Source: Sphingomonas sp. JUb134 (GTDB lineage Bacteria > Pseudomonadota > Alphaproteobacteria > Sphingomonadales > Sphingomonadaceae). From it: a DNA stretch of 64,000 nt. The position numbers and the translations under genes are program-made. Positions 8,852 to 25,804 of this stretch are shown in pieces (the stretch's first letter is position 1; the number at the start of each line of letters is the position of its first letter). The DNA is taken from the NCBI RefSeq assembly GCF_004341505.2, contig NZ_SLYP02000001.1:338501-402500 (forward strand), given 5' to 3'. The notes under the pieces were generated by a model. That model was not told where the DNA came from. It did not search any database and saw nothing but the letters and a program-made list of their open reading frames with translations.

Positions 8852-8945
8852 CGCTTCCTCCTGAGCCTCCGCCCAGACCTTAGGGAAGCCCTGTACCGCG
8901 GCCATCAGGATCACCCCGCAGGTCGCGGACGGAACGTATCCGACG

Positions 8946-10273: not shown

Positions 10274-11311
10274 ATGGCCAGCACCCCCTCCATCCCCCTC
10301 CCCGGCCGCGTCGCGGACCGCCCCGCCGTCGATGCGGAAACCTTCTCAAAGGAAATTCTGCAGGAGTACCGGCCCGTGATCTTGCGGGGGCAGGTGCGGC
10401 ACTGGGCCGCGGTCCGGGCGGGCGCGCACGGCGATCGGGCGATGGCCGAGTATCTCGCGGGTTTCGGCGGCGGCCGGCCCCTGGAGGTGATGATCGGCGC
10501 GCCGGAGATTGCGGGGCGGTTTTTCTACAATGACGATCTGTCGGGCTTCAACTTCCAGCGACAGCAGGTGACGCTCGGCCAGTTGCTCGGCGAACTCCTT
10601 CGCTTTGCCGAGCAAGACGTGGCCGATCCGCACGCGCTCTATGCCAATGCCGCGACGGCACCGGAGCATCTACCCGGCTGGGACGCCGCGAACGCGCTCG
10701 ACCTTCCCACCGGAAATGCGCCGGCGCGGCTTTGGATCGGCAACGCCACCCAGGTGGCGACCCACTATGACCAGTCGAACAACATCGCCTGCGTCGTCCA
10801 CGGCCGCCGCCGCTTCACCCTGTTCCCGCCCGATCAGATCGCCAACCTCTACATCGGCCCGCTCGACCACACGATGGCGGGGCCGCCGTCGAGCATGGTC
10901 GATCCCGACGCACCGGATCTCGCGCGCTACCCGCGGTTCGAGGAGGCGATGGCGCATGCCCAAGTCGCCGAGCTGAAGCCCGGCGACGCGATCTTCATTC
11001 CCGCGATCTGGTGGCATCATGTCCGCGCGCTCGACCGCCTCAACGTGCTGGTGAATTACTGGTGGAGTGCGGAGGCGACGGCGTCCCCCTTCGGAGCGCT
11101 GATCCACGCCCTGATGAGCATCCGCGACCTGCCGGCACCCGAAAAGGCGGCGTGGCGATCCTGGTTCGACCATTATGTCTTCGGGCCCGAAGCGGGCAGA
11201 GCTGCCGAGCACCTGCCCGCGTCCGCGCGCGGGATCCTGTCGACGGCGAGCCCGGCGCGCACCGAGCGGCTGCGCGCTTTTTTGATCCGGATGCTCGGCG
11301 GCCGGGTCTGA
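10274..11311 (+). CDS. Cupin-like (JmjC-related, cupin_8) hydroxylase
   Basis: A 345-residue member of the cupin_8 family related to the asparaginyl hydroxylase FIH. The iron-binding triad is visible: His164 and Asp166 in VATHYDQSNN and His248 in FIPAIWWHHV. The family motif RRRFTLFPPDQIANLYIGP follows the first pair. Such enzymes are Fe(II)/2-oxoglutarate dioxygenases that hydroxylate protein or small-molecule targets; the target here is unknown. It is about 40 per cent or more identical by eye to the convergent cupin at 11335-12345, whose stop is 23 bases away, so the two probably arose by duplication. The nearby halogenases and TonB receptor are the context. The promoter presumably lies in 10043-10273, shared with the divergent kinase. 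Confidence 0.85.
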   Translation: MASTPSIPLPGRVADRPAVDAETFSKEILQEYRPVILRGQVRHWAAVRAGAHGDRAMAEYLAGFGGGRPLEVMIGAPEIAGRFFYNDDLSGFNFQRQQVTLGQLLGELLRFAEQDVADPHALYANAATAPEHLPGWDAANALDLPTGNAPARLWIGNATQVATHYDQSNNIACVVHGRRRFTLFPPDQIANLYIGPLDHTMAGPPSSMVDPDAPDLARYPRFEEAMAHAQVAELKPGDAIFIPAIWWHHVRALDRLNVLVNYWWSAEATASPFGALIHALMSIRDLPAPEKAAWRSWFDHYVFGPEAGRAAEHLPASARGILSTASPARTERLRAFLIRMLGGRV

Positions 11312-11334
11312 GCGGCTCCTCGCCTCCCCCGAGG

Positions 11335-12345
11335 TCAGGAGCGCGAGAAACTGTCCAGCAGCGTTGCCCGCATCCGCGCAGCAGTGACGGTGTCCGGGCG
11401 ACCGAGAACGCCCTTGACCTCTTCGGGCAGGTGCGCCGCCGGCTCGCCGTTGCGGCGAAAGACGAGGTGGTCGAACACGGTCCGATACACTTCCCGCTGG
11501 TCTTCCGGCAGCGATCCGATCGCGACCAGCGCGTGGAGCAGCGCGTCATAGGGATTGCCCATGCCGGCCGGCGCCGGGTTCCACCAATAGTTGACGAAGG
11601 CGTTGACGGGATCGAGCGATTCCACCGCGTGCCACCAGTGGAAGGGGATGTAGATCGCATCGCCCGGCTCCAGCGTGGCAGACTGCGCCTCCTTCGCGGC
11701 GTCGGCAAAGCGCGGAAAGCGTTCGAGGTCGGGCGCATCGGGATCGACCAGGCTGATCGGTGTCCCGGCGGGGGTCAGCTCCAGCGGCCCCATGTACAGG
11801 TTGGCGATCTGGTCGGGTGGAAACAGGGTGAAGCGCCGCCGGCCCATCACGACGACGCCGATGTTCTCCATCAGATCGTAATGGGTGGCGACGCGGATCG
11901 CGTTGCCCAGCCACATGCGCGGGATGACGGAGGTTGGCAGCAGGCTGGTCGCGTTCTCGTCGGTAAAGCCGGGCAGGAGTTGCGGCAGCGGCACGGACTG
12001 GACCGCCATGGCATAAGGCCGCGCATGATCGCGATCCCGCAGCAGCCGGTCCAGGAACGGACCGAGCGGGCTCTGACCGCGGACGAAGTTCAGCCCCTTC
12101 AGATCGGGCGTGTAGAAAAAGCGCCCGCCGATCTCTGGCTCGCCGAGGATCGCGGACACGGGCTGCGGATGGCTGAAGCGCTTGAGATAGGCGATGCCAA
12201 CGTCGGCGGACGCCTGCGCCGCCTTCACCGCCGGCCAATCGCGGCCTAGCCCGCGCAGGACCACCGGGCGTGCAGCCGGGCGCACCTCCTCCTCGAAGGT
12301 ACGGCGGTCGATACCGTGGATCTCGGGCAGCGGCGGATAGGTCAT
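11335..12345 (-). CDS. Cupin-like (JmjC-related, cupin_8) hydroxylase, operon-encoded
   Basis: 336 residues. Iron ligands are His155 and Asp157 in VATHYDLMEN and His239 in YIPFHWWHAV, with the same RRRFTLFPPDQIANLYMGP motif as its convergent paralogue. The ATG at 12345 overlaps the stop of halogenase 1 (ATGA), so this is the last gene of the five-gene halogenase operon and is translationally coupled to it. The open frame extends 66 codons upstream, but that stretch is out-of-frame halogenase sequence. It is predicted to be an Fe(II)/2-oxoglutarate hydroxylase; the co-expressed halogenases suggest both act on the same or related substrates, which is inference. Confidence 0.85.
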   Translation of the reverse strand: MTYPPLPEIHGIDRRTFEEEVRPAARPVVLRGLGRDWPAVKAAQASADVGIAYLKRFSHPQPVSAILGEPEIGGRFFYTPDLKGLNFVRGQSPLGPFLDRLLRDRDHARPYAMAVQSVPLPQLLPGFTDENATSLLPTSVIPRMWLGNAIRVATHYDLMENIGVVVMGRRRFTLFPPDQIANLYMGPLELTPAGTPISLVDPDAPDLERFPRFADAAKEAQSATLEPGDAIYIPFHWWHAVESLDPVNAFVNYWWNPAPAGMGNPYDALLHALVAIGSLPEDQREVYRTVFDHLVFRRNGEPAAHLPEEVKGVLGRPDTVTAARMRATLLDSFSRS

Positions 12346-13874
12346 GCCACCACCAGGCTCGGCCTGGGGTCGCAGCCAATCTGGCGAAGATGATCGTCCT
12401 GGTGCGGCAGGAGCGAGGCGGTGTCTGCGATAACCTGGCGGATATGCTCCAGCCGCGTCAGCGTCTCTGCATCGGAAAGCAGGTCGGCGGCCGGATGATA
12501 GCCGCCCGCTTCCACCCCCTGCCCCACCATCACCGACAGCCAACTCGTCTCGGTAAAGAGCTCATTGCCTTCCCGGAAGATGCGGCCGTTGGCACCGAAG
12601 ATGGCCAGCTTGCTTGCGAGCCCCGGCGGCGGTTCGAGGGCGCGGCAATAGTCCCAGAACGGCGTATCGTCGCGCTCGGTCGCCTTGTAGTGCAGCACCA
12701 GGAAGTCGCGGATCTCCAGGTAATCCGAGACATGGGCGGCGTTGAAGCGGTCGATCTCCAGCTGGTCGAACCGGCGCGTCGGCCAATAGGTGAGCAGCCG
12801 GGCGATCGCCGACTGGACCAGGTGGATGCTCGTCGATTCCAGCGGTTCGAGAAAGCCGCCGGCAAGGCCGAGCGCGACGACGTTGCCCACCCAGGCACGC
12901 CGGCGGTGCCCGGCGGTGAAGCGCAGCAGCCGCGGATCGGCGAGCGGTGCGCCGTCGAGGTTGGCGAGCAGGGTTGCGGCCGCTTCATCGTCGGAAAGAT
13001 GGACGGAGGAATAGACATAGCCATTGCCGATGCGGTGCTGGAGCGGGATCCGCCACTGCCACCCGGCACCGCGTGCAGTGGAGCGCGTGAGCGGCTGGCG
13101 GTCGCCGCCGTTCGCGCATGGCACCGCCACCGCCCGGTCGCACGGAAGCCACTGCGTCCAATCCTCGAACCCCGCCGCCATCGCGCCTTCGATCAGCAGC
13201 CCGCGGAAGCCCGAGCAGTCGAGGAACAGGTCGCCTTCGATCCGCGCGCCCGATTGCAGCACCACCGCTGCGACATGCCCCGTCTCCCCGTCGCGCTCGA
13301 CGTCGACGATGCGGCCCTCGGTGCGGGTGGCGCCGTTGGCTTCCGCCAGCCGGCGCAGGAAGCGCGCATAGAGCCCCGCATCGAACTGGAAGGCGTAGCC
13401 GAGCTTGGACAGCGGCGAGGACGGCTGGTCCGGGCGCGGGTGCGCGAACCGCCCCTGAAGGCCGCCGACGATGCCCAGCGAATAGGCGTCAAGCGGCGTC
13501 GGATCGCCCAGCTCCCGGCCCTTCAGCCAGAAATGGTGGAACTCGATCCCCTTCATGTCGAGGCCGTAGAAGCCGAACGGATGCACGTAGCGATGGCCCG
13601 GGCGAAGCCAGTCGACGAACTCGATCCCCAGCTTGTAGGTCGCGCGGGTTTCGCGGACGAACTCCGCCTCGTCGATGCCGAGCATCTTGTTGAACAGCAC
13701 GATCTGCGGGATCGTCGCCTCGCCGACGCCAACGGTGCCGATCTCTTCGGATTCGACGAGCTCGATCGACAGGCCCGGCATCTCGCCCAGGACGCGGGTG
13801 ATCGCCGCCGCCGCCATCCACCCGGCGGTGCCGCCGCCGACGATCACCACGCGGCGGATCGCATCGGGCCTCAC
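12342..13874 (-). CDS. Flavin-dependent (tryptophan-type) halogenase 1
   Basis: 510 residues from a GTG start (13874) that overlaps the previous stop (GTGA). All family landmarks are present: FAD-binding IVGGGTAGWMAAAA (about 11-24), GTVGVGEATIP (about 46-56), the catalytic lysine region RATYKLGIEF (Lys81), CSGFRGLLIEGA, the halogenase WxWxIP motif in AGWQWRIPLQH, and GGFLEPLESTSIHLVQ with the conserved Glu. Enzymes of this family use FADH2, oxygen and halide to make hypohalous acid, which Lys relays to an aromatic substrate. The substrate in these sphingomonad/Caulobacter clusters is not known and may not be free tryptophan. It needs a flavin reductase, none of which is visible nearby. Confidence 0.9.
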   Translation of the reverse strand: MRPDAIRRVVIVGGGTAGWMAAAAITRVLGEMPGLSIELVESEEIGTVGVGEATIPQIVLFNKMLGIDEAEFVRETRATYKLGIEFVDWLRPGHRYVHPFGFYGLDMKGIEFHHFWLKGRELGDPTPLDAYSLGIVGGLQGRFAHPRPDQPSSPLSKLGYAFQFDAGLYARFLRRLAEANGATRTEGRIVDVERDGETGHVAAVVLQSGARIEGDLFLDCSGFRGLLIEGAMAAGFEDWTQWLPCDRAVAVPCANGGDRQPLTRSTARGAGWQWRIPLQHRIGNGYVYSSVHLSDDEAAATLLANLDGAPLADPRLLRFTAGHRRRAWVGNVVALGLAGGFLEPLESTSIHLVQSAIARLLTYWPTRRFDQLEIDRFNAAHVSDYLEIRDFLVLHYKATERDDTPFWDYCRALEPPPGLASKLAIFGANGRIFREGNELFTETSWLSVMVGQGVEAGGYHPAADLLSDAETLTRLEHIRQVIADTASLLPHQDDHLRQIGCDPRPSLVVA

Positions 13875-15475
13875 AGCGGATTGGCCGAGAAGTTGAACGG
13901 CGTCTCCGACGCAAAGGAGAAGTTCGGTTCCCCCGGCACCTCGGCGGGTTGCGGAGGTGCCGGCGTGTTCGCAAGCGAGGCTCCGGTGTGCCGCAGGAAC
14001 TCCGCATGGGTCGGCAACTGCGCCGCCACGCGAAGATAACCCTGCCGCATCTCCTCCAGGGCGGCCGCCACCTTGTCCTCGTCCAGGGCGTCGGCGGCAG
14101 GCTCGTGCTCTTCCGGCACGATATGCTGGCCCAGGCAGACCGCGACCCAGCTGGTGGTCGCAAACAGCTCCGCGCCATCGCGGAACACCCGCCCCTTGGC
14201 GCGGAACAGGTCGATCTTGCGCTGCAGGCTCTCGGGCACATCCATGGTGCGGCACCGCTCCCAGAACGGCGTGTCGCGCCGCCTGGTCGCCTTGTAGTGG
14301 AGGATCACGAAATCGCGGACGTCTTTATAAAGGTCGCGCATCTGGCGGTTGTACTCGTCGCGCTCGACGGGATTGAAGCGCCGGTCCGGGAACAGCGAGA
14401 TCAGCCTGGTGATGCCGGCCTGGACGAGGTGAATCGACGTGGATTCCAGCGGCTCTACGAAGCCCGACGACAGCCCCAGCGCGACGACGTTGCGGTTCCA
14501 GCCGAGCTTGCGTCGGCCCGTCACGAACGAGAGGTGGCGCGGCTCGGCAAGGGGCTCGCCCTCCAGGTTGGCGAGAAGTTCGCGTTCCGCGGCTTCTGCG
14601 GTCATGAAGTCGCTGCAATAGACCAGCCCGTTGCCCATCCGCTGCTGCAGCGGGATGCGCCATTGCCAGCCGGCACCGCGTGCGGTGGCGCGGGTGAACG
14701 GATCGGGGTCGCCGGAATAGCTGCTGGGGACCGCCACGGCGCGATTGCACGGCAGCCACTGGCTCCAGTCCTCATAGCCGGTCTCCAGCGCTTCCTCGAT
14801 CAGGAGACCGCGGAAGCCGGAGCAGTCGATGAACAGGTCGCCTTCGACCGCCTGCCCGTTCTCCAGCTTCACGGCGGCGACATGGCCGTCCTCGGGGCGC
14901 AGCGCCACCTCGACGATCTTGCCCTCGATCCGCTGGACGCCGCCCGCCTCGGCATAGCGGCGCAGGAAGCGCGCATAGAGGCTGGCGTCGAAGTGGAATG
15001 CGTAGAGCAGCTCCTTCACCGCCGACTGCGCACCTTCGGCCGGGCGCGCGAACTTTCCGGCCTGCGCGGCGACTGCGCTCATCGACCAGGCGGAGATATC
15101 CTGCATCACCCGGCGCTTGCGCTCGCGCAGGTACAGCTGGTGGAAATGAATCCCGCCGAGATCATGGCCATGCGCGCCGAACGGATGGAAGTAGCGCTCC
15201 CCGATGTCGCCCCAGCCGTCGAACTCGATGCCCAGCTTGTAGGTGCCGCCGGTTTCGCGAATGAAGTCGTTCTCGTTGATCCCCAGCATGCGATTGAAGT
15301 TGAGGAGCGGCGGAATGGTCGCCTCTCCCACCCCGACCGTGCCGATTTCCTCGGACTCGATCAGCGTGATGCGGGTCACGCCATTGTTGAGAAAGCGGGA
15401 GAACGCCGCAGCGGCCATCCAGCCGGCGGTGCCGCCGCCGACGATGACGACATTGCGGATCATGTGTTCGTTCAT
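13871..15475 (-). CDS. Flavin-dependent (tryptophan-type) halogenase 2
   Basis: 534 residues. FAD site IVGGGTAGWMAAAAF (about 11-25), GTVGVGEATIP (about 45-55), catalytic Lys80 in GGTYKLGIEF, CSGFRGLLIEEA, WQWRIPLQQ and GFVEPLESTSIHLVQ are intact, so activity is expected. The ATG at 15475 overlaps the stop of halogenase 3 (ATGA). It is closest to halogenase 1 by eye. The C-terminus has a Pro-rich extension of about 35 residues (NTPAPPQPAEVPGEPNFSF) not seen in its paralogues. It is the third gene of the operon. Confidence 0.9.
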   Translation of the reverse strand: MNEHMIRNVVIVGGGTAGWMAAAAFSRFLNNGVTRITLIESEEIGTVGVGEATIPPLLNFNRMLGINENDFIRETGGTYKLGIEFDGWGDIGERYFHPFGAHGHDLGGIHFHQLYLRERKRRVMQDISAWSMSAVAAQAGKFARPAEGAQSAVKELLYAFHFDASLYARFLRRYAEAGGVQRIEGKIVEVALRPEDGHVAAVKLENGQAVEGDLFIDCSGFRGLLIEEALETGYEDWSQWLPCNRAVAVPSSYSGDPDPFTRATARGAGWQWRIPLQQRMGNGLVYCSDFMTAEAAERELLANLEGEPLAEPRHLSFVTGRRKLGWNRNVVALGLSSGFVEPLESTSIHLVQAGITRLISLFPDRRFNPVERDEYNRQMRDLYKDVRDFVILHYKATRRRDTPFWERCRTMDVPESLQRKIDLFRAKGRVFRDGAELFATTSWVAVCLGQHIVPEEHEPAADALDEDKVAAALEEMRQGYLRVAAQLPTHAEFLRHTGASLANTPAPPQPAEVPGEPNFSFASETPFNFSANPL

Positions 15476-16965
15476 CGGGTAATCCGTGCGTGTTGCGCTG
15501 CGTGGTGCTGCGCAGCGGTGGGGAATTGCGGCAGTGCGCGTGCGATCGCGGCGCGGTATCCGGCCATGGCTGCATCCGACTGGTGCGCCGGCGTGGCGCC
15601 GATCAGCGGGTCGATCCGGCGCGGTATCAGGCCCTGGCCGAGCAGGATCGCGAGCCAGCTGTCGCGCGTGAAGGTCTCCTCCTCGAAGAAGGGCAGCCGC
15701 CCGCGCTCGGCGAACAGGCGAAGGGTGCGCGCGAGGCTTTCGGGCAGCGCGGCACGCGGCTGCCAGAAGGGCTCGGGCCGCCGCGCAGTCGCATAATGGC
15801 AAAGAACGAAGTCGCGGACGCGCGTGACCTCGGCGACGGCCTGGCGGTTATAGTCGGCGATCTCGAGCGGATGGCAGGCGCGGCCCGGCATCGCCGAGAT
15901 GATCCGGTCGATCGCGCTGTGGGCGAGGTGGAGGTTGGTCCATTCGAGCGGCTCGATGACCACGGCCGCGTCGCCGATCGCCACGCAATTGCGCAGCCAG
16001 GGTTCGGGACGCGTGCCTTGCCGGAACCCGATGGCCGGCCGGGGCTCGACCCCGCTCACCTCGGCGAGCAGTCGGTGCGCATCCTCGTCGCGCAGAAAGC
16101 CGCTGGCGTAGCAGAGCCCGTGCGAGGTCGCGCCCGGCAGCGCGCTTTGCCAGCGCCAGCCGCCGGAAAGCGCCACGACATCGTCCAGCGTCGACGGGGT
16201 CGCCGCCGCCGACGACGCCTGCATCAGGCGATCACAGGCGAGCCACGGTCGCCAGTCCTCCCACGCGGTGTCGATGGCGCCGCGCACGACACTGTCAGGC
16301 CCCGAGGCATCGACGAAAAGGTCCGCCTCGACCGATCCGCCATCCGCAAGCGCCACGCGCTCGATGAAGCCGTCTCCACCGCGAAGCCGCACCTCCACGA
16401 CCTCGCCCGCGCGCACGACGACACCCAGATGGCGCGCGAAGGCTTCGAGCATGGCGCGGTAGCGTCCGATATCGAGCACGAGGCCTGCCTGAATATCCGC
16501 GAACGGCGATCCGGGCTCCGGATTCGGCGGAAGCATCCGCCCGGCCCGCGCGAGCATTGCCGCCGGCGAATGCGCGTCATAGGGCGCGGCCGACCCGGCA
16601 TGGGCGGCACGCGTCCAGTGATGGTGGAACGACGCCGTGCCGAACGACTGCCCATAGCTCCCATAGGCGTGGACATAGGCCGGCTGCCCCTCGGCCCAGC
16701 CCTCGAACAGCGTTCCCAGGCGCCAGCCGCTGCCGGTGCGCAGCACCGCGTCTTCCTCGCGCAGCCCGACGTCGTCGTGGAACCCGATCGCCGACGGGAG
16801 CGTCTGCGGCATCCGGTCCGCGAGAGCATTGGCAGGCGGCGCCACCGGGACGATCGTCACCGACACTCCGGGCACGCGCCGCTTCAACGCGACCGCGGCG
16901 GACCAGCCGACGATGCCGCCGCCGACCACTGCGACGCTGCGTACCGGCTCGTCGAGCATCGTCAC
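15472..16965 (-). CDS. Divergent halogenase paralogue 3, catalytic residues lost
   Basis: 497 residues (GTG at 16965 overlapping the previous stop; ATG at 16959 is an alternative). The fold is clearly that of the flavin-dependent halogenases: VAVVGGGIVGWSAAVAL, VEADLFVDASGPDSVV, WEDWRPWLACDR and VIEPLEWTNLHLAHSAIDR align with the other three. However, the GVGEATxP loop is replaced by SAIGFHDDV, the catalytic Lys position reads Arg (SGWRLGTLFEGW, Arg82) and WxWxIP is degraded to WRWQSALP. By family knowledge the Lys is required for halogenation, so this copy is probably inactive as a halogenase. Its retention as a full-length frame inside a tightly overlapping operon argues for a non-catalytic or altered role, such as partner, chaperone or oxidase. 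Confidence 0.8.
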   Translation of the reverse strand: MTMLDEPVRSVAVVGGGIVGWSAAVALKRRVPGVSVTIVPVAPPANALADRMPQTLPSAIGFHDDVGLREEDAVLRTGSGWRLGTLFEGWAEGQPAYVHAYGSYGQSFGTASFHHHWTRAAHAGSAAPYDAHSPAAMLARAGRMLPPNPEPGSPFADIQAGLVLDIGRYRAMLEAFARHLGVVVRAGEVVEVRLRGGDGFIERVALADGGSVEADLFVDASGPDSVVRGAIDTAWEDWRPWLACDRLMQASSAAATPSTLDDVVALSGGWRWQSALPGATSHGLCYASGFLRDEDAHRLLAEVSGVEPRPAIGFRQGTRPEPWLRNCVAIGDAAVVIEPLEWTNLHLAHSAIDRIISAMPGRACHPLEIADYNRQAVAEVTRVRDFVLCHYATARRPEPFWQPRAALPESLARTLRLFAERGRLPFFEEETFTRDSWLAILLGQGLIPRRIDPLIGATPAHQSDAAMAGYRAAIARALPQFPTAAQHHAAQHARITR

Positions 16966-18476
16966 GCGGCGGCCGCCATCGGGCAGTAGCGCCCGAGATA
17001 GGAGAGGTGATCGGGCATGGCGGCCGCCGCCGCATGGATTTCCCCCTGCATCTGCTTCATGCCCGCGACGAGACTTTCGAGCGTCGGCCCGGACGCGCGT
17101 GGATCAAAGCCGGCGGGCATCACGCGCTGGCCGAGGTAGACCGACACCCAACTGGCATCGAGGAACGCCCCTTCGCGGTACTTCACGATCCGCCCGCGGC
17201 GGCGGAACAGCTCCATTTTCTCCGCTAGGCTGTCCGGAATGGCCATGGTCCGCACGTAGTTCCAGAACTCGGAGTCGGCGCGTTGCGTGGCGTGGTAATG
17301 CAGGATCAGGAAGTCGCGCACCCGATCATATTCCATGTCGACGACGCGGTTGAACTCGTCGCGATCGACTGGGGAGATGCGAGGCTCCGGGAACAGCTCC
17401 AGCAACGCGGTGATCGCCTGCTGGACCAGGTAGATGCTGGTGGACTCCAGCGGCTCCAGGAAGCCGCCCGACAGCCCGATCGCCACGACATTGTGCGCCC
17501 AGCTGCGTTCGCGCCGCCCGGCGGTGAACCGCAGGACGCGCGGGCTCGCCATCGGCATGCCCTCCACCGCGCTCGTCAACGCGTCGGCGGCATGCTCGTC
17601 CGAGAGGAACGCACTCGAATAGACATAGCCGTTGCCCGTGCGGTGCTGGAGCGGGATCCGCCAGCGCCAGCCCGCCGGCATGGCGACGGCGCTGGTGTAG
17701 GGAGTGACTTCCGTCACGGTGCGACACGGAAGCGCCACGGCTCGATCGGCGGGCAGCCAGCGCGACCAGTCCTGAAACGGCTCTCCCAGCGTCTTGCCGA
17801 TCAGCAGCGACGCGAAGCCCGAGCAGTCCACGAACAGGTCGCCCTCGATCCGCCTGCCGCCCTCCAGCAGCACCGCGGTCACATCGCCGCTCTCGCCGTC
17901 GCGCTCGACATGGACGATCCTGCCCTCGGTGCGCTCCGCCCCCAGCCCCTCGGCCAGGCGGCGCAGGTAGGGGGCAAACGCGACGGCATCGAACTGATAG
18001 GCATAGCCGAAGGTGGACGCGATCTGGCGCGGGTCGGTGGACGGCGGCGCGAACCGGTTCGCCCGCGCCAGCGTGCACGCCATGGAGAATGCCTCGATCG
18101 GCGGAAGCTGGACGCCCGCGTGCAGGAGCCGGGCGTAATAGTGATGGAACTGGACGTCCCCGGCGCCACGCCCGAACGTGCCGAACGGGTGGATGTAGCT
18201 GTCGCCGATGCGTGCCCAGTCGCGGAATTCGATGCCCAGCTTGAACGTGGCCCGGGTGGTGGCCATGAACTCGGCTTCGGGGATGCCCAGGCGCTCGTTG
18301 AAGGCGCGGATATGCGGCAAGGTCGCCTCGCCGACTCCGATGATCCCGATCGCCTCGGATTCGACGAGGTGCACCTGGCAGCGATCGGGCAGCAGCTTCA
18401 CCAGGGCGGCCGCGGTCATCCAGCCCGAAGTGCCGCCTCCCACCACCACGACACGCTGCCGATCCGGCCCGGTCAT
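16962..18476 (-). CDS. Flavin-dependent (tryptophan-type) halogenase 4, first gene of the operon
   Basis: 504 residues. The landmarks are VVVVGGGTSGWMTAAAL (about 9-25), GIIGVGEATLP (about 44-54), catalytic Lys79 in RATFKLGIEF, FVDCSGFASLLIG, GWRWRIPLQH and GGFLEPLESTSIYLVQ; all are intact. GGAGGGGGC precedes the ATG at 18476. This is the promoter-proximal gene of the halogenase/cupin operon and is divergent from the TonB receptor across 233 bp, which suggests co-regulation. Similar TonB-receptor/halogenase/cupin groupings are known from Caulobacter and sphingomonad carbohydrate regulons, but the biochemical purpose is undescribed. Confidence 0.9.
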   Translation of the reverse strand: MTGPDRQRVVVVGGGTSGWMTAAALVKLLPDRCQVHLVESEAIGIIGVGEATLPHIRAFNERLGIPEAEFMATTRATFKLGIEFRDWARIGDSYIHPFGTFGRGAGDVQFHHYYARLLHAGVQLPPIEAFSMACTLARANRFAPPSTDPRQIASTFGYAYQFDAVAFAPYLRRLAEGLGAERTEGRIVHVERDGESGDVTAVLLEGGRRIEGDLFVDCSGFASLLIGKTLGEPFQDWSRWLPADRAVALPCRTVTEVTPYTSAVAMPAGWRWRIPLQHRTGNGYVYSSAFLSDEHAADALTSAVEGMPMASPRVLRFTAGRRERSWAHNVVAIGLSGGFLEPLESTSIYLVQQAITALLELFPEPRISPVDRDEFNRVVDMEYDRVRDFLILHYHATQRADSEFWNYVRTMAIPDSLAEKMELFRRRGRIVKYREGAFLDASWVSVYLGQRVMPAGFDPRASGPTLESLVAGMKQMQGEIHAAAAAMPDHLSYLGRYCPMAAAA

Positions 18477-18709
18477 GCCCCCTCCTGCCCCTCTTCCTGC
18501 GCTTCGCTCTGCGGCGAAGCTTCCCCTCGCTCTTATCAGTCGCCGGACCGTTGGCCAGCGCTATAAGTGACTATAAAGCAACATCATCCGAAATAAAGTT
18601 AGCGCGAACATTTCTCTTGCGAGGGAGAAATCGCAGTCGTAGCCTCCCTGTTGAACGATGCGGCGCAGTATGACTGCGACACGACATCGACGTACATGGG
18701 AGGGGGACT
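18477..18709. promoter_or_regulatory. Divergent promoter region, halogenase operon and TonB receptor
   Basis: The 233-bp gap holds an AT-rich core (about 18560-18600) with a tandem CTATAAGTGA / CTATAAAGCA at about 18562-18581 and a small dyad TTTCTC-N8-GAGAAA at about 18611-18630. Promoters for both directions must lie here. No operator can be assigned to a known regulator, and no regulator gene for the locus is present in the window. Confidence 0.45.
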
Positions 18710-21700
18710 ATGCGCACCGATGCGACAGAAGAAGCACGCCTGAAGATCAGCGCCCGCAAGAAGGCGTTCCGACTCGGCGTTTCCGCGACGGCAATGTGCA
18801 TGTTTGCGCTGGGTGCACCGGCGCATGCGCAGACGGGCGCGGCGAGCGGCCAGAACACGGCGGGCGGGACTACCGCCACCAGCGGCCCCGGGGCCGATCA
18901 GGCCGCACCACAAGATCCGGTCGAAAGCCTGCCCGATGATGGGGGAAGCGGGAACGAAGTCGTCGTTACCGGCATCCGCCAGAGCCTCGCCAATGCGCAG
19001 AACATCAAGCGCAACTCCGACACCGTCGTCGACGCGATCACGTCGCAGGACATCGGCGCGCTGCCGGATCGCTCGGTGACGGAAGCGCTGCAGCGCGTGC
19101 CCGGCGTCTCGATCAACCGCTTCGCCGGCAACAACGACCCCGACCACTTTTCGGTCGAGGGTTCGGGCGTCAACGTGCGCGGCCTCAATTTCGTGCGATC
19201 CGAATTCAACGGCCGCGACACCTTCTCGGCCGGTATCGGCGGTCAGGCGATCAACTTCGCCGACGTGCCTTCGGAACTGCTCGGCTCGGTCGAGGTCTAC
19301 AAGAACGCGACTGCCGACCTGATCGAGGGCGGCCTTGCCGGCACGGTCAACCTCAACACCCGCAAGCCCTTCGACAACAGGGGCTTCCACATCGGCGGCG
19401 GCATCGAGGCGAACTATGGCGACTTCGCGAAGAAATGGTCGCCGACCGGCTCGCTGCTGATCAGCAACACCTGGGAAACCGGGATCGGCACCATCGGCGT
19501 CCTCGCCAACGGCTCCTATTCGCGGATCAAGAGCCGCGCCGACGGTATCCAGGTCACCAACTTCCAGACGCGCGACGGCGTCCAGGCCGCGACCGGTACG
19601 GGCACCAATACCACCGTCACCTGCCGCAACCAGCTTCCGGGAAACACGGACAGCACCACCTTGCTGCCGGGCACCATCACCGGCGTCGGGGGGGCCTCCT
19701 TCCCCAATCCGGCCAATGTCTGCGGCGCCACCGGGAGCGCCGGCGCGGATGGCTTTGCCGACCCGATGAGCCTGGCCTATGCGCCCATCGGCGGACAGTT
19801 CCGAAGCCAGGACTACGACCGCAAGCGCGACGGCCAGGCGATCGCCGTGCAGTGGGAGAGCACCGACCAGCGCACGGTGCTGACCGCGCAGTTCATGCGC
19901 ACCCACTCCAGCAATGCCTGGGGCGAGCACACGTTCGAAACGGCGCCCGACCTGTCGGAGTACAACACCTATCCCGCAGGCTGTCAGCAGAACGGCAACG
20001 GGCCGCTCAACGGCGCGGGCAACACGACCACGCGTGCGGAGTGCCGCCTCAACGGTTCGGGTGAGTTCGCATTCGGGGAGAACCAACGCGGCAATGGCTA
20101 TAACCCGACCGGCAATGCGTTCCCCAACTTCGTGTACGACAGCAACGGCCTGTTCCAGAGCGGGTTCATCACCCTGCCGGGCTCAGGCTGGCGCACGGCC
20201 TCCAGTGGTTCCGCTACCACCACGGTGCCGACCGGCGGCATGCAGCAGTCGCTCTCCCGCCGTCAGGTCTATGACGAGAACCTGGTCAAGGACGTCGGCA
20301 TCAACCTGAAGATCAACCCCGACGATCACTGGTCGATCGGCCTGGACGTCGACTATACCTACGCCAAGCACGACGTCACCGACCTGAGCGTGTTCGGCTC
20401 GACCTTTGCCGACGAAGAGCTGGACCTGACGGGCAAGATCCCGGTCGTGATCCCGCACAAGCCGCTGACGCTGGCGGCGAACTGGGCGTCGCCGAACCCG
20501 GCGATGGCTGCCGCGAGCGATTCCGAATATTTCCAGAGCCGCGACTTCCAGTTCTGGCGCGCCGCGATGGACCACATCGAGCACAGCAAGGGCGACGAAT
20601 ATCAGATCAAGGGCGACTTCGCGTACAAGTTCGACGACGGCGAGTTCCTGCAGCGGATCAAGTTCGGCGCGCGCTATGCCGAACGTTCGCAGGACGTACG
20701 CTATTCCGCCTATAACTGGGGCGCGATCAGCGAAGTGTGGTCGGGTGCTCCCGTCACCTTCAACCAGGGCGATACCAGCCGCTCGTCGCTGTACAGCTTC
20801 GACAACTTCTTCCGCGGCAAGACGTCCGCTCCGCCCAGCGCCTATTACTACAACGGAGACCTGATCAAGGGCTACTCCGACGCGGTGTCCTTCTTCCAGG
20901 CGCAGAACGACATCTGGCGCGAGACGAATGGCGCGACGGCGAGCAACCGCTTCCTGGGTGCAGGCCAGCGCGCCGGCGCCATCCCGGGCTCCGACTTCCT
21001 GCCGTCGGAGGTGTCGAACGTCCGCCAGGAAGACTCCGCAGCCTACGCGATGGTGCAGTTCGGCAACAACGACCCGATCTTCGGCAATGTGCGGATGTCG
21101 GGCAACGTCGGCGTCCGCTACGTCCACACCGATGTCTATTCGCGGACGGCCACCGCAGTACCGAACCGGACGGAACTGGGCGTCGCCGACCCCTACTCCA
21201 CCCGCTGCGTCGCGACGATCCGGACCTTGCCGGACGGAACGACGGAAACCGTCCAGCCGGGCGGCGTCTGCAATCTCGGCGCTGTCGAATATGAGCGGCT
21301 GCGCGAGTTCGCGGTCGACGGCTATGCCGCCGTGCCAGCCTCGTTCAAGAACAGCTACAGCTACTTCCTGCCCAGTGCGAACCTGAAGTTCGGCCTGACC
21401 AACGACCTGATCCTGCGCCTCGCCGGGTCGAAGGTGCTGACCCGTCCGGACTTCGCCAACATCCGGCCCTATGTCACCTATGCGCTGGAACCTGGCTCCG
21501 GCACCGTCACCATCAATGCGGGCAATCCGAACCTGAAGCCCGCGACCGCGTGGCAGTTCGACGTGACGCTGGAATGGTATTTCGGCCGGGTGGGGCAGCT
21601 GTCGTTCGACGCCTTCTACAAGACCGTGGACGGCTTCTTCTACCAGTCGCTCGTCAACCGCTCCGTCACCAACAACGGCATCACCCAGAACATCCAGGCG

Positions 21701-22249
21701 CGCGGTCCGGAGAATTACGACGGAAAGGGCAAGATCAAGGGCTTCGAGGTCGCCTATCAGCAGACCTTCGACTTCCTGCCGGGGGCGCTCAGCGGACTGG
21801 GCTTCAACGGCAACTACACCTACATCGACAGCTCCGGACTTCCGAATTCCTTCCTGAACGGGGGAACGCCTTCGTCCAACTCGACGGTCGCGAAGGGGAA
21901 TTTGCCGCTCGAGGGGCTTTCCAAGCACAACGTCAACGCGACGCTGTTCTACGAAAAGGGGCCGATCTCCCTTCGCGCCGCGTACAACTGGCGATCCCGC
22001 TTCCTCCTGACGGCGGCGGACGTGATCTTCCCGTACACGTCGATCTTCAACGACGATACCGGCCAGCTCGACGCGTCGGCGTTCATCAACATCAACAAGT
22101 GGGTGAAGCTGGGCGTGCAGGGGGTGAACCTCACGAACACGACGACGAAGCTTCTTCAGGCGTACAAGTCGGGATCCAACGATCTTGCGCCCCGGTCCTT
22201 TTTCACGAACGACCGGCGCTACTCGATCATCCTGCGCGCGAACTACTAA
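18710..22249 (+). CDS. Large TonB-dependent receptor (TIGR01782-like)
   Basis: 1179 residues. A long basic N-terminus and signal peptide end near APAHAQ (40-41), followed by a Gly/Thr/Pro-rich linker. The TonB-box region NEVVVTGIRQSLANAQ precedes the plug domain, which has ITSQDIGALPDRSVTEALQRVPGV, VRGLNFVRSEFNG and an EVYKNATADLIEGGLAGTVNL segment. A 22-strand-type barrel follows, with YLPSANLKFGLT, LAGSKVLTRPDFANIRPY and NAGNPNLKPATAWQFDVTLEWYF, and ends in ILRANY. Receptors of this size and type import oligosaccharides or other bulky nutrients across the outer membrane. The flanking xylanase and glucanase suggest xylo- or cello-oligosaccharides, which is inference. GGAGGGGGA precedes the ATG, and a terminator follows. 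Confidence 0.9.
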   Translation: MRTDATEEARLKISARKKAFRLGVSATAMCMFALGAPAHAQTGAASGQNTAGGTTATSGPGADQAAPQDPVESLPDDGGSGNEVVVTGIRQSLANAQNIKRNSDTVVDAITSQDIGALPDRSVTEALQRVPGVSINRFAGNNDPDHFSVEGSGVNVRGLNFVRSEFNGRDTFSAGIGGQAINFADVPSELLGSVEVYKNATADLIEGGLAGTVNLNTRKPFDNRGFHIGGGIEANYGDFAKKWSPTGSLLISNTWETGIGTIGVLANGSYSRIKSRADGIQVTNFQTRDGVQAATGTGTNTTVTCRNQLPGNTDSTTLLPGTITGVGGASFPNPANVCGATGSAGADGFADPMSLAYAPIGGQFRSQDYDRKRDGQAIAVQWESTDQRTVLTAQFMRTHSSNAWGEHTFETAPDLSEYNTYPAGCQQNGNGPLNGAGNTTTRAECRLNGSGEFAFGENQRGNGYNPTGNAFPNFVYDSNGLFQSGFITLPGSGWRTASSGSATTTVPTGGMQQSLSRRQVYDENLVKDVGINLKINPDDHWSIGLDVDYTYAKHDVTDLSVFGSTFADEELDLTGKIPVVIPHKPLTLAANWASPNPAMAAASDSEYFQSRDFQFWRAAMDHIEHSKGDEYQIKGDFAYKFDDGEFLQRIKFGARYAERSQDVRYSAYNWGAISEVWSGAPVTFNQGDTSRSSLYSFDNFFRGKTSAPPSAYYYNGDLIKGYSDAVSFFQAQNDIWRETNGATASNRFLGAGQRAGAIPGSDFLPSEVSNVRQEDSAAYAMVQFGNNDPIFGNVRMSGNVGVRYVHTDVYSRTATAVPNRTELGVADPYSTRCVATIRTLPDGTTETVQPGGVCNLGAVEYERLREFAVDGYAAVPASFKNSYSYFLPSANLKFGLTNDLILRLAGSKVLTRPDFANIRPYVTYALEPGSGTVTINAGNPNLKPATAWQFDVTLEWYFGRVGQLSFDAFYKTVDGFFYQSLVNRSVTNNGITQNIQARGPENYDGKGKIKGFEVAYQQTFDFLPGALSGLGFNGNYTYIDSSGLPNSFLNGGTPSSNSTVAKGNLPLEGLSKHNVNATLFYEKGPISLRAAYNWRSRFLLTAADVIFPYTSIFNDDTGQLDASAFININKWVKLGVQGVNLTNTTTKLLQAYKSGSNDLAPRSFFTNDRRYSIILRANY

Positions 22250-22270
22250 GACCAGCCCATCGAAACGCGA

Positions 22271-22307
22271 AGGGAGGCGGTGCTACGGCGCCGCCTCCCT
22301 TTTCTTT
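22271..22307 (+). terminator. Rho-independent terminator of the TonB receptor gene
   Basis: Stem AGGGAGGCGG / CCGCCTCCCT with a 10-base loop, then TTTCTTT, 21 bases beyond the stop codon. Confidence 0.85.
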
Positions 22308-22370
22308 GCCAGCCTTTGCTGAAGTCCCAGGATACTCGGGCCCGGTGGTTTACCGCCGCTCCTTCGACCC

Positions 22371-23507
22371 TCACGCCGTTCGCTGCGGGGCGCCGGCCAG
22401 CGCTGCCGCGATCGCATCGCGGAGCGGCTTCGCACGATATCGGGCGTCATAGGGGCACGGGCGGCGCGGCGCCTTGTCCGCCCTGGGCTCGAACCCTTCG
22501 ATCCAGCTGAAGCGGTCCGTCATGCCCCAGGCGACCACGTCCCGCAGCCGCGAATAGGAGAGGGTCACGTCGAGATAGGCCCGGGCATAGTCCGCCACGC
22601 CCCGGTCGCGGGCCTTGGCTTCGACGGGCAGGCCGTTGTCGCGCACGTCCAACTCGGTGACGAGCAGGCGATAGCCCATCGCCGTCACGGCATCGAGAAA
22701 GCGGCGCCAATCATCTTGCTGAGCAAGGATGCTCTTGTGCGTGTCGGGTCCCGAGGTGACGAGGTGCGACTGGATCCCGAGCGCATCGACCGGCGTGCCA
22801 CGCCGGCGAAACCCCTCGAGCAAGCGGAGCACACCCGCACGATGCGTGGCGTTGCCCGGCTCCCAGCTCATATAGTCGTTGTAGACGAGCTCGGCGTGCG
22901 GCGCGGATGTGCGCGCGGTCCGGAACGCGAGGTCGATCGTCGCTTCGGTGCCGCCCATCGCCTGGCTGAGCGCGGTTTCCTCCAGCGCGCCGGTCTCGGG
23001 CGTCACGGCTTCGTTCACGACATCATAGCTCTGGATGCGCGTTTCGTAGCGGCGCGTCACCGCCTCGATGTGCTCCACAAGGATGCGCGCGGCCTCGGTG
23101 GCGGGACGCGCGCCGAAGTCGTGCGCCTCCACCCAGGCGGGCATCCACTTGCGGCGCTGCCACAGGAGATTGTGTCCACGCATCGCCATCCCGTTCTGCT
23201 CCGACCAGGCGAGCATGCGATCAAACGCGGCGAAGTCGAACTGGCCGGGGGCCGGTCCGACATGCTGCCACTTCATCTCGTTCTCGGCCACCAGCAGCCC
23301 GCAGTCGGTGCGGAGCAGCGCCGCATAGTCAGGGTTGGTGAACGAGCCCGTCCGGGGATTGGCCGACACCGCCGAACCGAAGCGCATGCCCTTGGTGCGC
23401 GCGATCGCATCGAGGCCGCGCGCCGGCGCGGCGCCGGCCGAACGCGGGCAGAGCGCCACCGCAGCCAGCAACCCGACCGCCTCTCGTCTCGTCGGCATCA
23501 GACCCAT
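22371..23507 (-). CDS. GH10 endo-1,4-beta-xylanase
   Basis: 378 residues with an N-terminal TAT-like signal (TRREAVGLLAAVALCPRSAGA). Glycoside hydrolase family 10 hallmarks: LLVAENEMKWQ (about 71-81), GHNLLWQ (111-117), the acid/base Glu166 in YDVVNEAV, IQSHL (about 245-249) and the nucleophile Glu285 in LLVTELDVRD, then WGMTDRFSW. It cleaves internal beta-1,4 bonds of xylan and acts in the periplasm or outside. No carbohydrate-binding module is present. GGGAGGA sits 7 bases before the start. It follows the GH9 gene on the same strand with a 41-base gap, so the two are probably co-transcribed as a hemicellulose/cellulose pair. Confidence 0.92.
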   Translation of the reverse strand: MGLMPTRREAVGLLAAVALCPRSAGAAPARGLDAIARTKGMRFGSAVSANPRTGSFTNPDYAALLRTDCGLLVAENEMKWQHVGPAPGQFDFAAFDRMLAWSEQNGMAMRGHNLLWQRRKWMPAWVEAHDFGARPATEAARILVEHIEAVTRRYETRIQSYDVVNEAVTPETGALEETALSQAMGGTEATIDLAFRTARTSAPHAELVYNDYMSWEPGNATHRAGVLRLLEGFRRRGTPVDALGIQSHLVTSGPDTHKSILAQQDDWRRFLDAVTAMGYRLLVTELDVRDNGLPVEAKARDRGVADYARAYLDVTLSYSRLRDVVAWGMTDRFSWIEGFEPRADKAPRRPCPYDARYRAKPLRDAIAAALAGAPQRTA

Positions 23508-23548
23508 GGCATTCCTCCCTCACGAACGATCGCCCGGCACGATCAGCG

Positions 23549-25375
23549 TTAGGCGCCGCCGTCCAGATAGGCTGCCACCCACAGCAGCGGCGCGTTCCAG
23601 TTGATCGCGACCTCGTTCAGCGCATAGGCCGAGATATCGTCCTTCCAGCAGCGTTGGGGCGCGCACTTCCCCTTCATCGTCAGGGCGATCGGATCGCTCA
23701 TCGATGTCGAGTTCGGCCCGCCCGAGACGACGCCGGGCGGCGGCCCGGGCAGCGACGGGTCCAGCTGGTGCGCCCAGAAACGGTGGTGCGGGTTCAGGAG
23801 AGGCCGCGCCCCGAAGCCGGAGACATAGCTCTGATCGAGCGGATTGCGGCCCAGCATGTAGTCCATCGCGTCGACCACGCCGACGCGATAGCGTGCCTCC
23901 CCGGTCAGGCCATGCGCCACTCCCAGGATCATCGCCCGGTTCAGGATCGAGGAGTTGGATCCCCAGGGATAGTCGAGCGTCGCATAGGGGATGCGGTAGC
24001 CGGACCGCTCCGTCTCCGCCAAAAAGCCGTCCGCCGCCGCGACAAGTGCGGCGCGGGCTCGCGCGGCATCAGCCTGGGGGATGCCCGGCGCCGTGGCGAG
24101 GGTGAACGTGCCGAGCGCGGCGACATTGCCCCAATTCGGCTCGCCGACCGGCGCGGACCGGGCAGGCATCGCCGCCAGCGCGTCGCCGTACACGGCCTCG
24201 CCCGTCGTCGCCCACAGCTCGGCGGTCGCCCAATAGAGTTCGTCCGACAGGTCATTGTCGCCGTAGCCGCCGCTGCCGGTGAAGCTGTTGGTCGCGTAGA
24301 CCTGCGGATTGCGTAACGCTGCCCGATAGGCGCGTTTCGCCGCCGTCAGGCAGGTCGCCGAAAATGCCGGATCGACGCTCCGCCAGATTCGCGCGCACTG
24401 CGCCGCAACAGCTGCCAGGTTGAGCGTCGCACCCGTCGTCGGCGGGTAGAGCAGCCGGTCCTCCTTGTCCTTGTGCGGCGGCGTCGGAAGCGGGGTCCAG
24501 TTGCGATCTGCGACCTTCTGGTGCGCCATCCCCCCGGCATCGATGGTGCGAAGCGTCAGCGGGCCGGCTGACGGCAAGGGTCCGACGGGCACTTCCGCAC
24601 GGACCCCATCGGGTATCTGCATGGCAAGCAGGAACCGCATCTCCCACCGTGCCTCGTCGAGGAGGTCGTTGATACGGTTGCCGGCTTCCGGCAAGCGGGC
24701 CCGCCCGTCCGCGAAGGTGAACCGGCCGCTGGCGGCCTGGCGCTCGTACAGGTTCTGCAGCGTCCAGAGCGAGATGCCGCCGTTGACGACATATTTGCCC
24801 TGGTCCCCCGCGTCGTACCAGCCGCCGGTCACGTCGAGCGTATAGCTGCAGCCGGGCCAGACGGTGCCGCGCTCGTCCGTGCCCCGGAAGCAGGTCGCGA
24901 TCTCCCGGGGATGCCCGGCCGGCCGCGCCCACTGCGTTCCCCCGGCATAGCGCGCCTCGATCGGGACCCCTGCCCGGTTCTGGTAGAAGAAGTTGAGCGC
25001 GGCGGACGCCAGCGGCGCGTACAGCCCCGTCCGCACCGCAAAAGCGCGGCTGGTCTGATCGGAGATCCGGATGCGGTAGGTGCCGGGCTTCGTCACCTGA
25101 TCGAAGCGGACGAGATGGACATTGTCGCCCGATGCGCGATCGGTCCCGACCACCGTCGTCTGCCCTGCGGCGGCCGTTTTCCCCTGCGCATCGAGCACCC
25201 GCCACCGGAGCGGCACGGTGGAGTCACTCGCAACGACCGCGCGCTTTACCGTATCCGGCAGGAAGCCGATCTGGTTCAGCCGGATCACGGGCCTGGCGTC
25301 GCCGGCAGCACCGATTGTTGATGCGGCAATTGCTGGCAGTACCAAGACGCGCAGATGGGCGGGGAGCAGCTTCAA
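23549..25375 (-). CDS. GH9 endoglucanase with N-terminal Ig-like domain
   Basis: About 608 residues from a TTG start at 25375, preferred because GGAGA lies 7 bases upstream and a clean signal peptide follows (KLLPAHLRVLVLPAIAAS); a GTG start at 25408 would add 11 residues. After the signal comes a CelD-type Ig-like domain (IRLNQIGFLPDTVKRAVV ... FAVRTGLY), then an (alpha/alpha)6 GH9 catalytic domain. GGWYDAGDQGKYVVNGG carries the catalytic Asp, NPHHRFWAHQ is the first GH9 signature region, and YALNEVAINWNAPLLW contains the catalytic Glu near the C-terminus. It hydrolyses beta-1,4-glucan (cellulose, mixed-linkage glucan). It is the first gene of the GH9-GH10 pair. Confidence 0.9.
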   Translation of the reverse strand: MKLLPAHLRVLVLPAIAASTIGAAGDARPVIRLNQIGFLPDTVKRAVVASDSTVPLRWRVLDAQGKTAAAGQTTVVGTDRASGDNVHLVRFDQVTKPGTYRIRISDQTSRAFAVRTGLYAPLASAALNFFYQNRAGVPIEARYAGGTQWARPAGHPREIATCFRGTDERGTVWPGCSYTLDVTGGWYDAGDQGKYVVNGGISLWTLQNLYERQAASGRFTFADGRARLPEAGNRINDLLDEARWEMRFLLAMQIPDGVRAEVPVGPLPSAGPLTLRTIDAGGMAHQKVADRNWTPLPTPPHKDKEDRLLYPPTTGATLNLAAVAAQCARIWRSVDPAFSATCLTAAKRAYRAALRNPQVYATNSFTGSGGYGDNDLSDELYWATAELWATTGEAVYGDALAAMPARSAPVGEPNWGNVAALGTFTLATAPGIPQADAARARAALVAAADGFLAETERSGYRIPYATLDYPWGSNSSILNRAMILGVAHGLTGEARYRVGVVDAMDYMLGRNPLDQSYVSGFGARPLLNPHHRFWAHQLDPSLPGPPPGVVSGGPNSTSMSDPIALTMKGKCAPQRCWKDDISAYALNEVAINWNAPLLWVAAYLDGGA

Positions 25376-25611
25376 GGTCGTCTCCGATAGATGCCTGCGG
25401 TGTAGCACTATTCCAGCGACCCGTAACGGAATACGTCAGGTGCTCTAACGGACGCGGCGCCACCTGCTTCCTACCTCGGAACGGCAGATTGAAGCTCTCG
25501 ACTTGGTTCTTGCGCCAGCGATCAGCGCGGCATTTTCGAAACCAAGTTCATCTATTGGCGCACGTCTATCCAGCCGCGGTGGAGACGATCGTGCTACGGG
25601 GGGAGAGATAA

Positions 25612-25702
25612 TGGCGGAGCGGGAGGGATTCGAACCCTCGATACGGTTTTGCCGTATACTCACTTTCCAGGCGAGCGCCTTCGACCACTCGGCCACCGCT
25701 CC
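25612..25702 (-). tRNA. tRNA-Ser (anticodon GGA)
   Basis: Reading the minus strand from 25702: acceptor GGAGCGG pairs with CCGCTCC; D-arm GCCGAGTGG...; anticodon stem CTCGC/GTGAG with loop CTGGAAA (anticodon GGA); a long variable arm with stem ATACGG/CCGTAT, as in serine tRNAs; T-loop GGTTCGAAT; discriminator G and an encoded CCA. The gap between GH9 and the tRNA (25376-25611) holds only an 8-bp dyad (25501-25508 with 25540-25547), and no integrase or attachment repeat is seen next to the tRNA. Confidence 0.97.
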
Positions 25703-25804
25703 GCATGCTCTGGAAAGCGGCCCGTACCGCGCGTTGCGCCGGGGCGCAAGGCTGATGCGCGTGCAGTTGCCAGCAGCCGCAGGCGCGTGGCACGCTGCGG
25801 GGTG

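Follow-up and report, generated by a model that had tools for sequence, protein, structure and literature searches.

A TonB receptor-associated operon of flavin-dependent halogenases, a predicted pseudo-halogenase and a JmjC-type hydroxylase in Sphingomonas

A 64,000-nucleotide stretch of the genome of Sphingomonas sp. JUb134 (the window; contig NZ_SLYP02000001.1, positions 338,501 to 402,500) contains a compact group of flavin-dependent halogenase and cupin hydroxylase genes beside a gene for a TonB-dependent receptor. Families were assigned with Pfam and NCBIfam profile scans, the Pfam scan covering 20 window proteins between 6.7 and 35.7 kb. An earlier note on this DNA had described an array of four halogenase paralogues, two JmjC-like cupins and one large TonB receptor next to a GH10/GH9 pair, and Pfam recovers exactly these families at those positions: four PF04820 proteins, two Cupin_8/JmjC proteins, one receptor with plug and barrel, GH10 and GH9 (Table 1), with an HWE histidine kinase to the left of the array. 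Against a TIGR01782 cut-off of 310 bits the receptor reaches 656.7, and it contains both PF07715 and PF00593. Once the start codons are corrected, five minus-strand genes follow one another in the order FDH4-FDH3-FDH2-FDH1-CupB, and at each junction the start of one gene and the stop of the gene before it share exactly 4 nt. These four overlaps suggest a single translationally coupled unit, within which there is no space for a precursor-peptide gene. The operon diverges from the receptor gene, and CupA is a separate plus-strand gene that converges on CupB. By eye and hydropathy only, the N-termini of the halogenases and cupins show no apparent signal peptide and the receptor has a hydrophobic leader. 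A scan for promoters and terminators gave nothing exceeding shuffled sequence. Identity in the divergent spacer across eight relatives is only 56% per column, open reading frames (ORFs) shorter than 80 aa having had no systematic search. As the note had also said, no nonribosomal peptide synthetase or polyketide synthase core, no other biosynthetic core and no flavin reductase matched among the 20 scanned proteins.

Table 1. Features of the halogenase-receptor locus, with positions counted along the window
Feature	Position (strand)	Length	Family and profile score	Remarks
CupA	10274..11311 (+)	345 aa	Cupin_8/JmjC-type 2-oxoglutarate hydroxylase; PF13621, 232 bits	HYD and downstream WWHH
CupB	11335..12345 (-)	336 aa	Cupin_8/JmjC-type hydroxylase; PF13621, 214 bits (longer ORF scored)	ATG start; last gene of the operon
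FDH1	12342..13874 (-)	510 aa	flavin-dependent halogenase; PF04820, 621 bits (longer ORF scored)	GTG start
FDH2	13871..15475 (-)	534 aa	flavin-dependent halogenase; PF04820, 655 bits (longer ORF scored)	motifs intact
FDH3	15472..16965 (-)	497 aa	predicted pseudo-halogenase; PF04820, 335 bits	
FDH4	16962..18476 (-)	504 aa	flavin-dependent halogenase; PF04820, 605 bits	full motif set; first gene of the operon
Divergent intergenic region	18477..18709	233 bp		xyl-box-like site AGTTAGCGCGAACA at 18597-18610
TonB-dependent receptor	18710..22249 (+)	1179 aa	TIGR01782	Trp670 opens long loop 666-767
GH10	22371..23507 (-)		xylanase family; PF00331, 259 bits	
GH9	23549..25408 (-)		cellulase family with CelD_N Ig-like domain; PF00759, 312 bits	

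The features that mark PF04820 halogenases (GxGxxG, the catalytic Lys and WxWxIP) are all kept in FDH1, FDH2 and FDH4, where the Lys is residue 79 of FDH4 and the complete set in FDH1 reads GGGTAGW, GVGEATIP, TYKLG and WQWRIP. These three proteins are 48-55% identical to one another, and FDH3 is about 34% identical to each. FDH3 keeps the fold and a PF04820 score and lacks both the catalytic Lys and WxWxIP: GWRLG stands where FDH4 has TFKLG (Lys79 to Arg), GVGE is lost, and WRWQSA takes the place of WRWRIP. The count of four paralogues given in the earlier note therefore stands for the genes, but judging from these motifs only three of them look like active halogenases.

The altered residues of FDH3 are not a peculiarity of this strain. 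One Lys-less halogenase-like gene is present in all 80 of the related loci described below, with Arg at the position in 78, Gln in one and one unresolved. A search of 5.8 billion proteins found 790 FDH3 homologues, and the best 120 of them all have Arg there; the source names shown for the homologues are tryptophan halogenase, tryptophan 7-halogenase and hypothetical protein. Against four relatives FDH3 is under purifying selection (dN/dS 0.16-0.37, compared with 0.08-0.18 for FDH4). The ratio was used for FDH4 and FDH3 only; the ORFs scored for FDH1 and FDH2 had spurious N-terminal extensions, and the comparison of CupB with L019 probably paired paralogues. An AlphaFold2 model of FDH3 (pLDDT 93.6) keeps the entire fold, with a TM score of 0.91 to the halogenase BrvH. 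Lys-less copies flanked by two Lys-bearing ones also occur at seven loci in other genomes, with Arg in five (L111, L116, L119, L124 and L126) and Ser or Cys in L130 and L135, and in Erythrobacter-type loci the Lys-less copy follows FDH4, on the opposite strand to FDH1 and FDH2. By its residues, then, FDH3 is a conserved pseudo-halogenase, and its conservation in that state makes a role as partner or scaffold likely. Separate from both types is a third halogenase class in which the Lys is kept, the second motif reads GVGEG(T/G)(F/W)P and W.WDIG replaces WxWxIP; its members often stand alone beside a receptor or glycosidase (L011:8546-10102, L095, L099, L103, L106, L109, L112, L121, L129, L136 and L139).

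Both cupins retain the HxD...H iron triad, as HYD and a later WWH. For CupB, the one of the two that was searched, the nearest solved chains are FIH, JMJD5, C2orf60 (TYW5) and JMJD7, most of which hydroxylate proteins. FIH, JMJD5 and JMJD7 have HxD...H in common with CupA and CupB, which differ from them in being bacterial Cupin_8 proteins tied to TonB receptors.

A scan of named genomes confirmed 147 loci of this kind, of which 80 were kept; by title nearly all are Sphingomonas or Erythrobacteraceae, the nearest being S. desiccabilis. FDH4 is present in all 80 by construction. Beside it the receptor was found in 77 loci, FDH2 in 76, FDH1 in 51, CupB in 49 and CupA in 19, with at least one cupin in 54, while GH10 was present in 42, GH9 in 28 and one or the other in 58. 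These counts are lower bounds because several loci end at contig edges. Other recurring neighbours are an MFS-type sugar transporter (28 loci), GH31 (16), GH1 (13), GH3 (8) and LacI regulators (8). The set of TonB receptor, halogenases and cupins thus recurs across sphingomonads, as the earlier note had expected, and is not an adjacency private to one strain; the grouping is confirmed as real, conserved within the order and receptor-associated. Two records with unexpected titles, Microvirga sp. SRT01 (L016, 85% identity) and Arthrobacter sp. TPD3018 (L037, 71%), carry a Sphingomonas-type locus and may therefore be mislabelled.

The published xyl-box (TGGTAGCGCTAACA; PMC10380989) is matched in at least 12 of 14 positions upstream of the receptor in 47 of 78 syntenic loci, in 15 of them exactly. 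Matches of that quality occur in 1 of 390 shuffled stretches and, among comparison receptors, at 5 of the 69 that have no halogenase; other receptors linked to a halogenase have them in 2 of 32 cases. At AGTTAGCGCGAACA, the site in the window, agreement with the published box is weaker (11 of 14 positions), and the core of this site is retained with substitutions in close relatives. The boxes in the syntenic promoters indicate that the window receptor is probably regulated by xylose or xylan and that the glycosidases belong with it. Receptor and degradative enzymes, here GH10 and GH9, are adjacent as in the CUT (carbohydrate utilization containing TonB-dependent transporter) loci of Xanthomonas, which combine a TonB receptor, degradative enzymes and a regulator; the TIGR01782 receptor, the GH10/GH9 pair and, in relatives, a xyl-box-type operator are likewise shared. 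The difference lies in the enzymes under discussion: none of the words halogenase, SapC or Pass1 has a match in the main text of the CUT paper of 2007 (PMC1790865). From its gene content and operator, the locus is probably a xylan/xylose-type receptor locus to which a tailoring module has been added.

The tailoring enzymes themselves reach well beyond xylan. In the host genome 12 PF04820 genes fall into six loci, each within 2 kb of one of 16 TIGR01782 receptors above the cut-off, and all five Cupin_8 genes lie within those six loci. The wider comparison took in 21 genomes of relatives, 12 with full-length halogenases, and counted 52 halogenase loci. Thirty-six of these are within 5 kb of a listed TIGR01782 receptor, where random placement gave 2.5 and at most 9 in 20,000 simulations. 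Adding L106, whose receptor was found by ORF calling, and eight loci with other TonB receptors or receptor-like barrels (among them L102, whose barrel is just under the cut-off) brings the total with a receptor or receptor-like protein to 45 of 52. At the other seven (L095, L097, L098, L099, L103, L104 and L105) no receptor was found within the fetched stretch, which for L103 begins at a contig end. Cupin_8 genes behave similarly: 23 of 26 have a listed receptor within 5 kb or a halogenase within 6 kb. Seven genomes without a TIGR01782 match (E 1e-90) had no PF04820 match either, and in two more (G007 and G014) the receptors are present and the PF04820 matches are weak and partial only. The accompanying enzymes vary from locus to locus: GH39, GH43 and GH3 at L011, GH3 and LacI at L010, GH2 and a carboxylesterase at L013, GH43 at L100, GH3 at L102, GH27-type alpha-galactosidases at L095 and L103, GH97 at L104 and GH2 at L107. 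The halogenases are not xylan-specific; they are tied to receptors across varied sugar loci.

Halogenase linkage also follows receptor lineage. Of the 108 receptors in a tree, 41 have a linked halogenase or cupin and 67 do not; along this tree linkage changes 6 times, compared with 33.1 times when the labels are shuffled. A second receptor at L126, with a halogenase 2.8 kb and a cupin 0.7 kb away, was scored as unlinked, the cluster being that of the other receptor; relabelling it gives 7 changes, and relabelling four cupin-only receptors as unlinked gives 9. Receptor and halogenase distances correlate over 36 pairs (Mantel r 0.54, with 0 of 2000 permutations as high). Enzymes that serve the receptor, or its ligand, should show such an association. 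Genes inherited together as one unit would leave an equal signal, so the association alone cannot choose between receptor and ligand.

The earlier note had suggested aromatic residues of the imported cargo or of the receptor as one possible target. When alignment columns were compared between linked and unlinked receptors over eight residue types, eleven columns passed the difference filter, and the largest difference is at Trp670: in the aligned column Trp is present in 33 of 41 linked and 2 of 67 unlinked receptors, and in 99% of 77 syntenic receptors. The MAFFT column overstates this contrast because the aligner pulls Trp residues together. Since the loop is otherwise hardly alignable (YNWGAISEVW, TLGDWGI, NDTWGG, VKWKAF), an alignment-free test was run, in which a Trp within the first 40 residues past the preceding strand is found in 33 of 41 linked and 17 of 67 unlinked receptors (p 3e-8, no tree correction). 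The two relabellings described above turn these figures into 33/42 and 17/66 for the L126 receptor and 29/37 and 21/71 for the cupin-only receptors. Three linked receptors from two more distant genomes, with both cupin and halogenase (L211, L212 and L218), repeat TLGDWG/TLGNWG and DTWGG. In an AlphaFold2 model of the window receptor (pLDDT 75, pTM 0.77, plug poorly modelled), the 666-767 loop connects strands 647-665 and 768-785 (block pLDDT 88); W670 is among its first residues, and the other long loops are on the same side. The alternation of long loops and short turns places this loop, in the model, on what is probably the extracellular side. A fold search with the receptor returned TonB receptors only (TMq about 0.3-0.4), and a sequence search against solved chains found none. 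The same loop has a CxxCGY-type motif in receptors at L129, L169, L175, L185, L191 and L226, of which L129 and L226 are beside third-class-like halogenases and the others are unlinked.

We tentatively read the operon as a receptor-dedicated tailoring module that acts, most likely, on the receptor polypeptide itself. The enzymes would be cytoplasmic, given the lack of apparent signal peptides, and from the anatomy of the locus they would be made together with the receptor when a xylose/xylan (XylR-type) operator is relieved. FDH4, with FDH2 and FDH1, would halogenate or oxidize side chains of the still unfolded receptor before its export, FDH3 would take no catalytic part but dock or scaffold the substrate, and the cupins, which resemble FIH and JMJD5, would hydroxylate receptor side chains, also before export. 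The likeliest residues would be the Trp or Trps that open loop 666-767 (N-W670-G...W677). An altered aromatic side chain in a surface loop could tune oligosaccharide binding or protect against attack by phage, bacteriocin or protease. A broader version of this proposal can be stated with greater reserve, as somewhat doubtful: a TonB-receptor posttranslational modification system, in which every receptor lineage would carry a cytoplasmic set of halogenases of its own to halogenate, with or without hydroxylation, a surface-loop Trp of its outer-membrane receptor, joined in some lineages by a pseudo-halogenase and JmjC hydroxylases.

A number of observations weigh against modification of the receptor. 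No modification has been observed so far, and a cytoplasmic enzyme must reach the receptor ahead of Sec export. Cupins and halogenases also occur apart, with 26 of 80 loci lacking a detected cupin and four receptors having a cupin only. Ten other residue columns passed the same enrichment filter as Trp670, and the 40-residue window was picked post hoc. When all loops were scanned without alignment, the strongest Trp difference was not in the candidate loop but in 406-520 (window 19925-20269), at 29/41 against 22/67 (p 1.6e-4; 28/41 against 22/67 without two flanking residues); the whole 655-772 loop gave 34/41 against 43/67 (p 0.048, among 232 tests). Tree-independent Trp contrasts were too few to reach significance, with 4 pairs and then with 8 pairs after 32 receptors were added (median p 0.22-0.25), the pairs being mostly in the expected direction (on average 3.4 the same and 0.1 opposite). 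In seven further genomes taken alone the plain Trp test fails (7/10 against 10/22, p 0.27), and p is 0.07 for the post-hoc motif; that motif was picked after the first set had been seen, so its p value on the first set is no fair test. A linked clade with motif-complete halogenases (L113, L114, L120, L122, L134 and L137) has no loop Trp, nor have linked L129 and L139, and two unlinked receptors at L216 show the NW motif as NWG or NWA. The rule that all linked receptors carry the loop Trp was consequently rejected, with 8 of 41 lacking it. The part of the note's idea that concerns receptor aromatic residues thus gains an enrichment and falls short in the tree-independent contrasts, and the support for these residues as the target is suggestive and statistically incomplete.

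Enzymes that would serve as models for such a modification are known. MibH, SrpI and MppI are flavin-dependent halogenases of Trp in a peptide (PMC12615548, PMC10858898, PMC11791876) and would provide the mechanism. As described in these papers they act on precursor peptides of ribosomally synthesized and posttranslationally modified peptides, whereas no precursor gene was recognized here and the proposed target is an outer-membrane protein of 1179 aa. The flavoproteins QhpG, LodB and GoxB oxidize Trp in proteins, and QhpG is described as dihydroxylating it apparently before the protein's export (PMC7876137). NCBIfam similarity of FDH2 and FDH4 to QhpG, of FDH2 to LodB and of FDH3 to GoxB is weak and far below the curated cut-offs, and no such cognate enzyme is among the 20 scanned window proteins.

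About equal to the receptor polypeptide, which we favour slightly, is the possibility that the enzymes produce or modify an aromatic small molecule derived from indole or phenol, which would be a receptor ligand, co-ligand, signal or deterrent. Each receptor lineage would have its own enzyme set because it recognizes its own molecule, and the lineage association is predicted here too. The nearest solved relatives of FDH4 and FDH3 lead in the same direction. Alongside 9luq these are Xcc4156 (6y1w) and BrvH from Brevundimonas BAL3 (6frl), the two nearest to FDH4; FDH1, FDH2 and FDH4 share the motifs of BrvH and the X. campestris halogenases. As reported, BrvH and three X. campestris halogenases act in vitro on free indole derivatives and not on free Trp, their native substrates being unknown in 2020 (PMC7336383; PMC5945002). 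BrvH was slow on indole, with activity so low that its authors doubt indole as the natural substrate, and they note that larger substrates could enter (PMC5945002). The setting differs too: the BrvH paper gives one second halogenase beside brvH, and its text has no match to the word TonB (PMC5945002), while here FDH1-4, a Lys-less paralogue among them, share one operon of overlapping genes with a hydroxylase. An RND efflux pump at window 32519-35659 and homogentisate-like genes, identified by eye about 5 kb from the halogenase of one other host-genome locus (L009), would suit a small molecule; no biosynthetic core or aromatic pathway was found among the 20 scanned window proteins, and a pseudo-halogenase with cupins resembling protein hydroxylases would fit a polypeptide better.

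It is unlikely that the enzymes act instead on some other exported protein from this regulon, such as the glycoside hydrolases. GH10 or GH9 is syntenic in the majority of loci, as counted above, and probably co-expressed, but the glycosidases vary between loci while the receptor stays, and SapC, a neighbour at two other halogenase loci of this genome, is absent here. Less probable again is the plant-phenolic idea of the earlier note, in which the enzymes modify ferulate or lignin-type phenolics freed from xylan and imported by the receptor. The frequency of GH10/GH9 and of the xyl-box at syntenic receptors agrees with it. Related halogenases, however, lie near GH27, GH97, GH2, GH3, GH43, GH39 and other receptor families, the xyl-box is rare at other halogenase-linked receptors, and no aromatic catabolic gene is among the scanned window neighbours. 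Alpha-galactosides and alpha-glucans, to our knowledge, carry no ferulate, so halogenases near the enzymes for them argue against a phenolic cargo; on the varied glycosidases and the rarity of the box elsewhere, the halogenases were rejected as xylan-phenolic enzymes. Least probable is that the halogenases are flavin monooxygenases or peroxide or hypohalite formers in oxidative defence, near receptors through shared regulation only: most PF04820 relatives found are uncharacterized by name and NCBIfam similarity to hydroxylases is present though weak, but FDH1, FDH2 and FDH4 retain the Lys and WxWxIP of true halogenases and the linkage follows receptor lineage.

Many proteobacterial genes annotated as tryptophan halogenases belong to an orphan class whose native substrates are given as unknown in the papers cited above (PMC5945002, PMC7336383). 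With a receptor-lineage linkage, a likely Lys-less partner and a candidate loop Trp, the orphan-halogenase question can be put directly to a single protein by mass spectrometry. Should the receptor prove to be the target, protein modification of a new type would act in nutrient uptake; should it not, the locus still defines an enzyme set to assay jointly rather than halogenase by halogenase. Titles and abstract openings in the open-access literature gave nothing on a receptor-halogenase-cupin-SapC set and nothing on inactive halogenase paralogues; papers that bring halogenases and TonB together, such as PMC11337851 and PMC3377617, lie outside that scope. As far as this search shows, what is new is the conservation of a pseudo-halogenase, the operon of overlapping genes, the association with receptor lineages and its controls, and the candidate residue.

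Some further observations concern the other halogenase loci and the flanks of the window. Sugar loci that include SapC- and halogenase-type genes have been reported from X. campestris, and at two host-genome loci (L009 and L010) the order is receptor-SapC-Cupin_8-halogenase. SapC has four copies in this genome, two of them with identical scores (C1:34920 and C1:3430341). An insertion-sequence-like pair of genes (506 and 293 aa, by eye) is beside two halogenase loci (L009:5701-8069 and L012:16418-18786); at the first it lies between the halogenase and two genes that by eye resemble homogentisate dioxygenase and fumarylacetoacetase (L009:1445-4071). Near receptor and halogenase at L094:5891-7939, L096:5145-7214, L101:5028-7127 and L108:9538-11568 are secreted-looking proteins, each about 680-700 aa long, whose N-termini are similar, and the L101 member, the one that was scanned, had no Pfam match. 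In the window, a 417-aa Omp85-superfamily protein (7661-8914) adjoins an SBF-type transporter (6728-7612) near the histidine kinase. On the other side of the array are a cyclophilin-type isomerase (25649-26704) and, immediately to its right, an Mla-type lipid ABC transporter set of ABC_trans_aux, MlaD, ATPase and MlaE (26771-30324).

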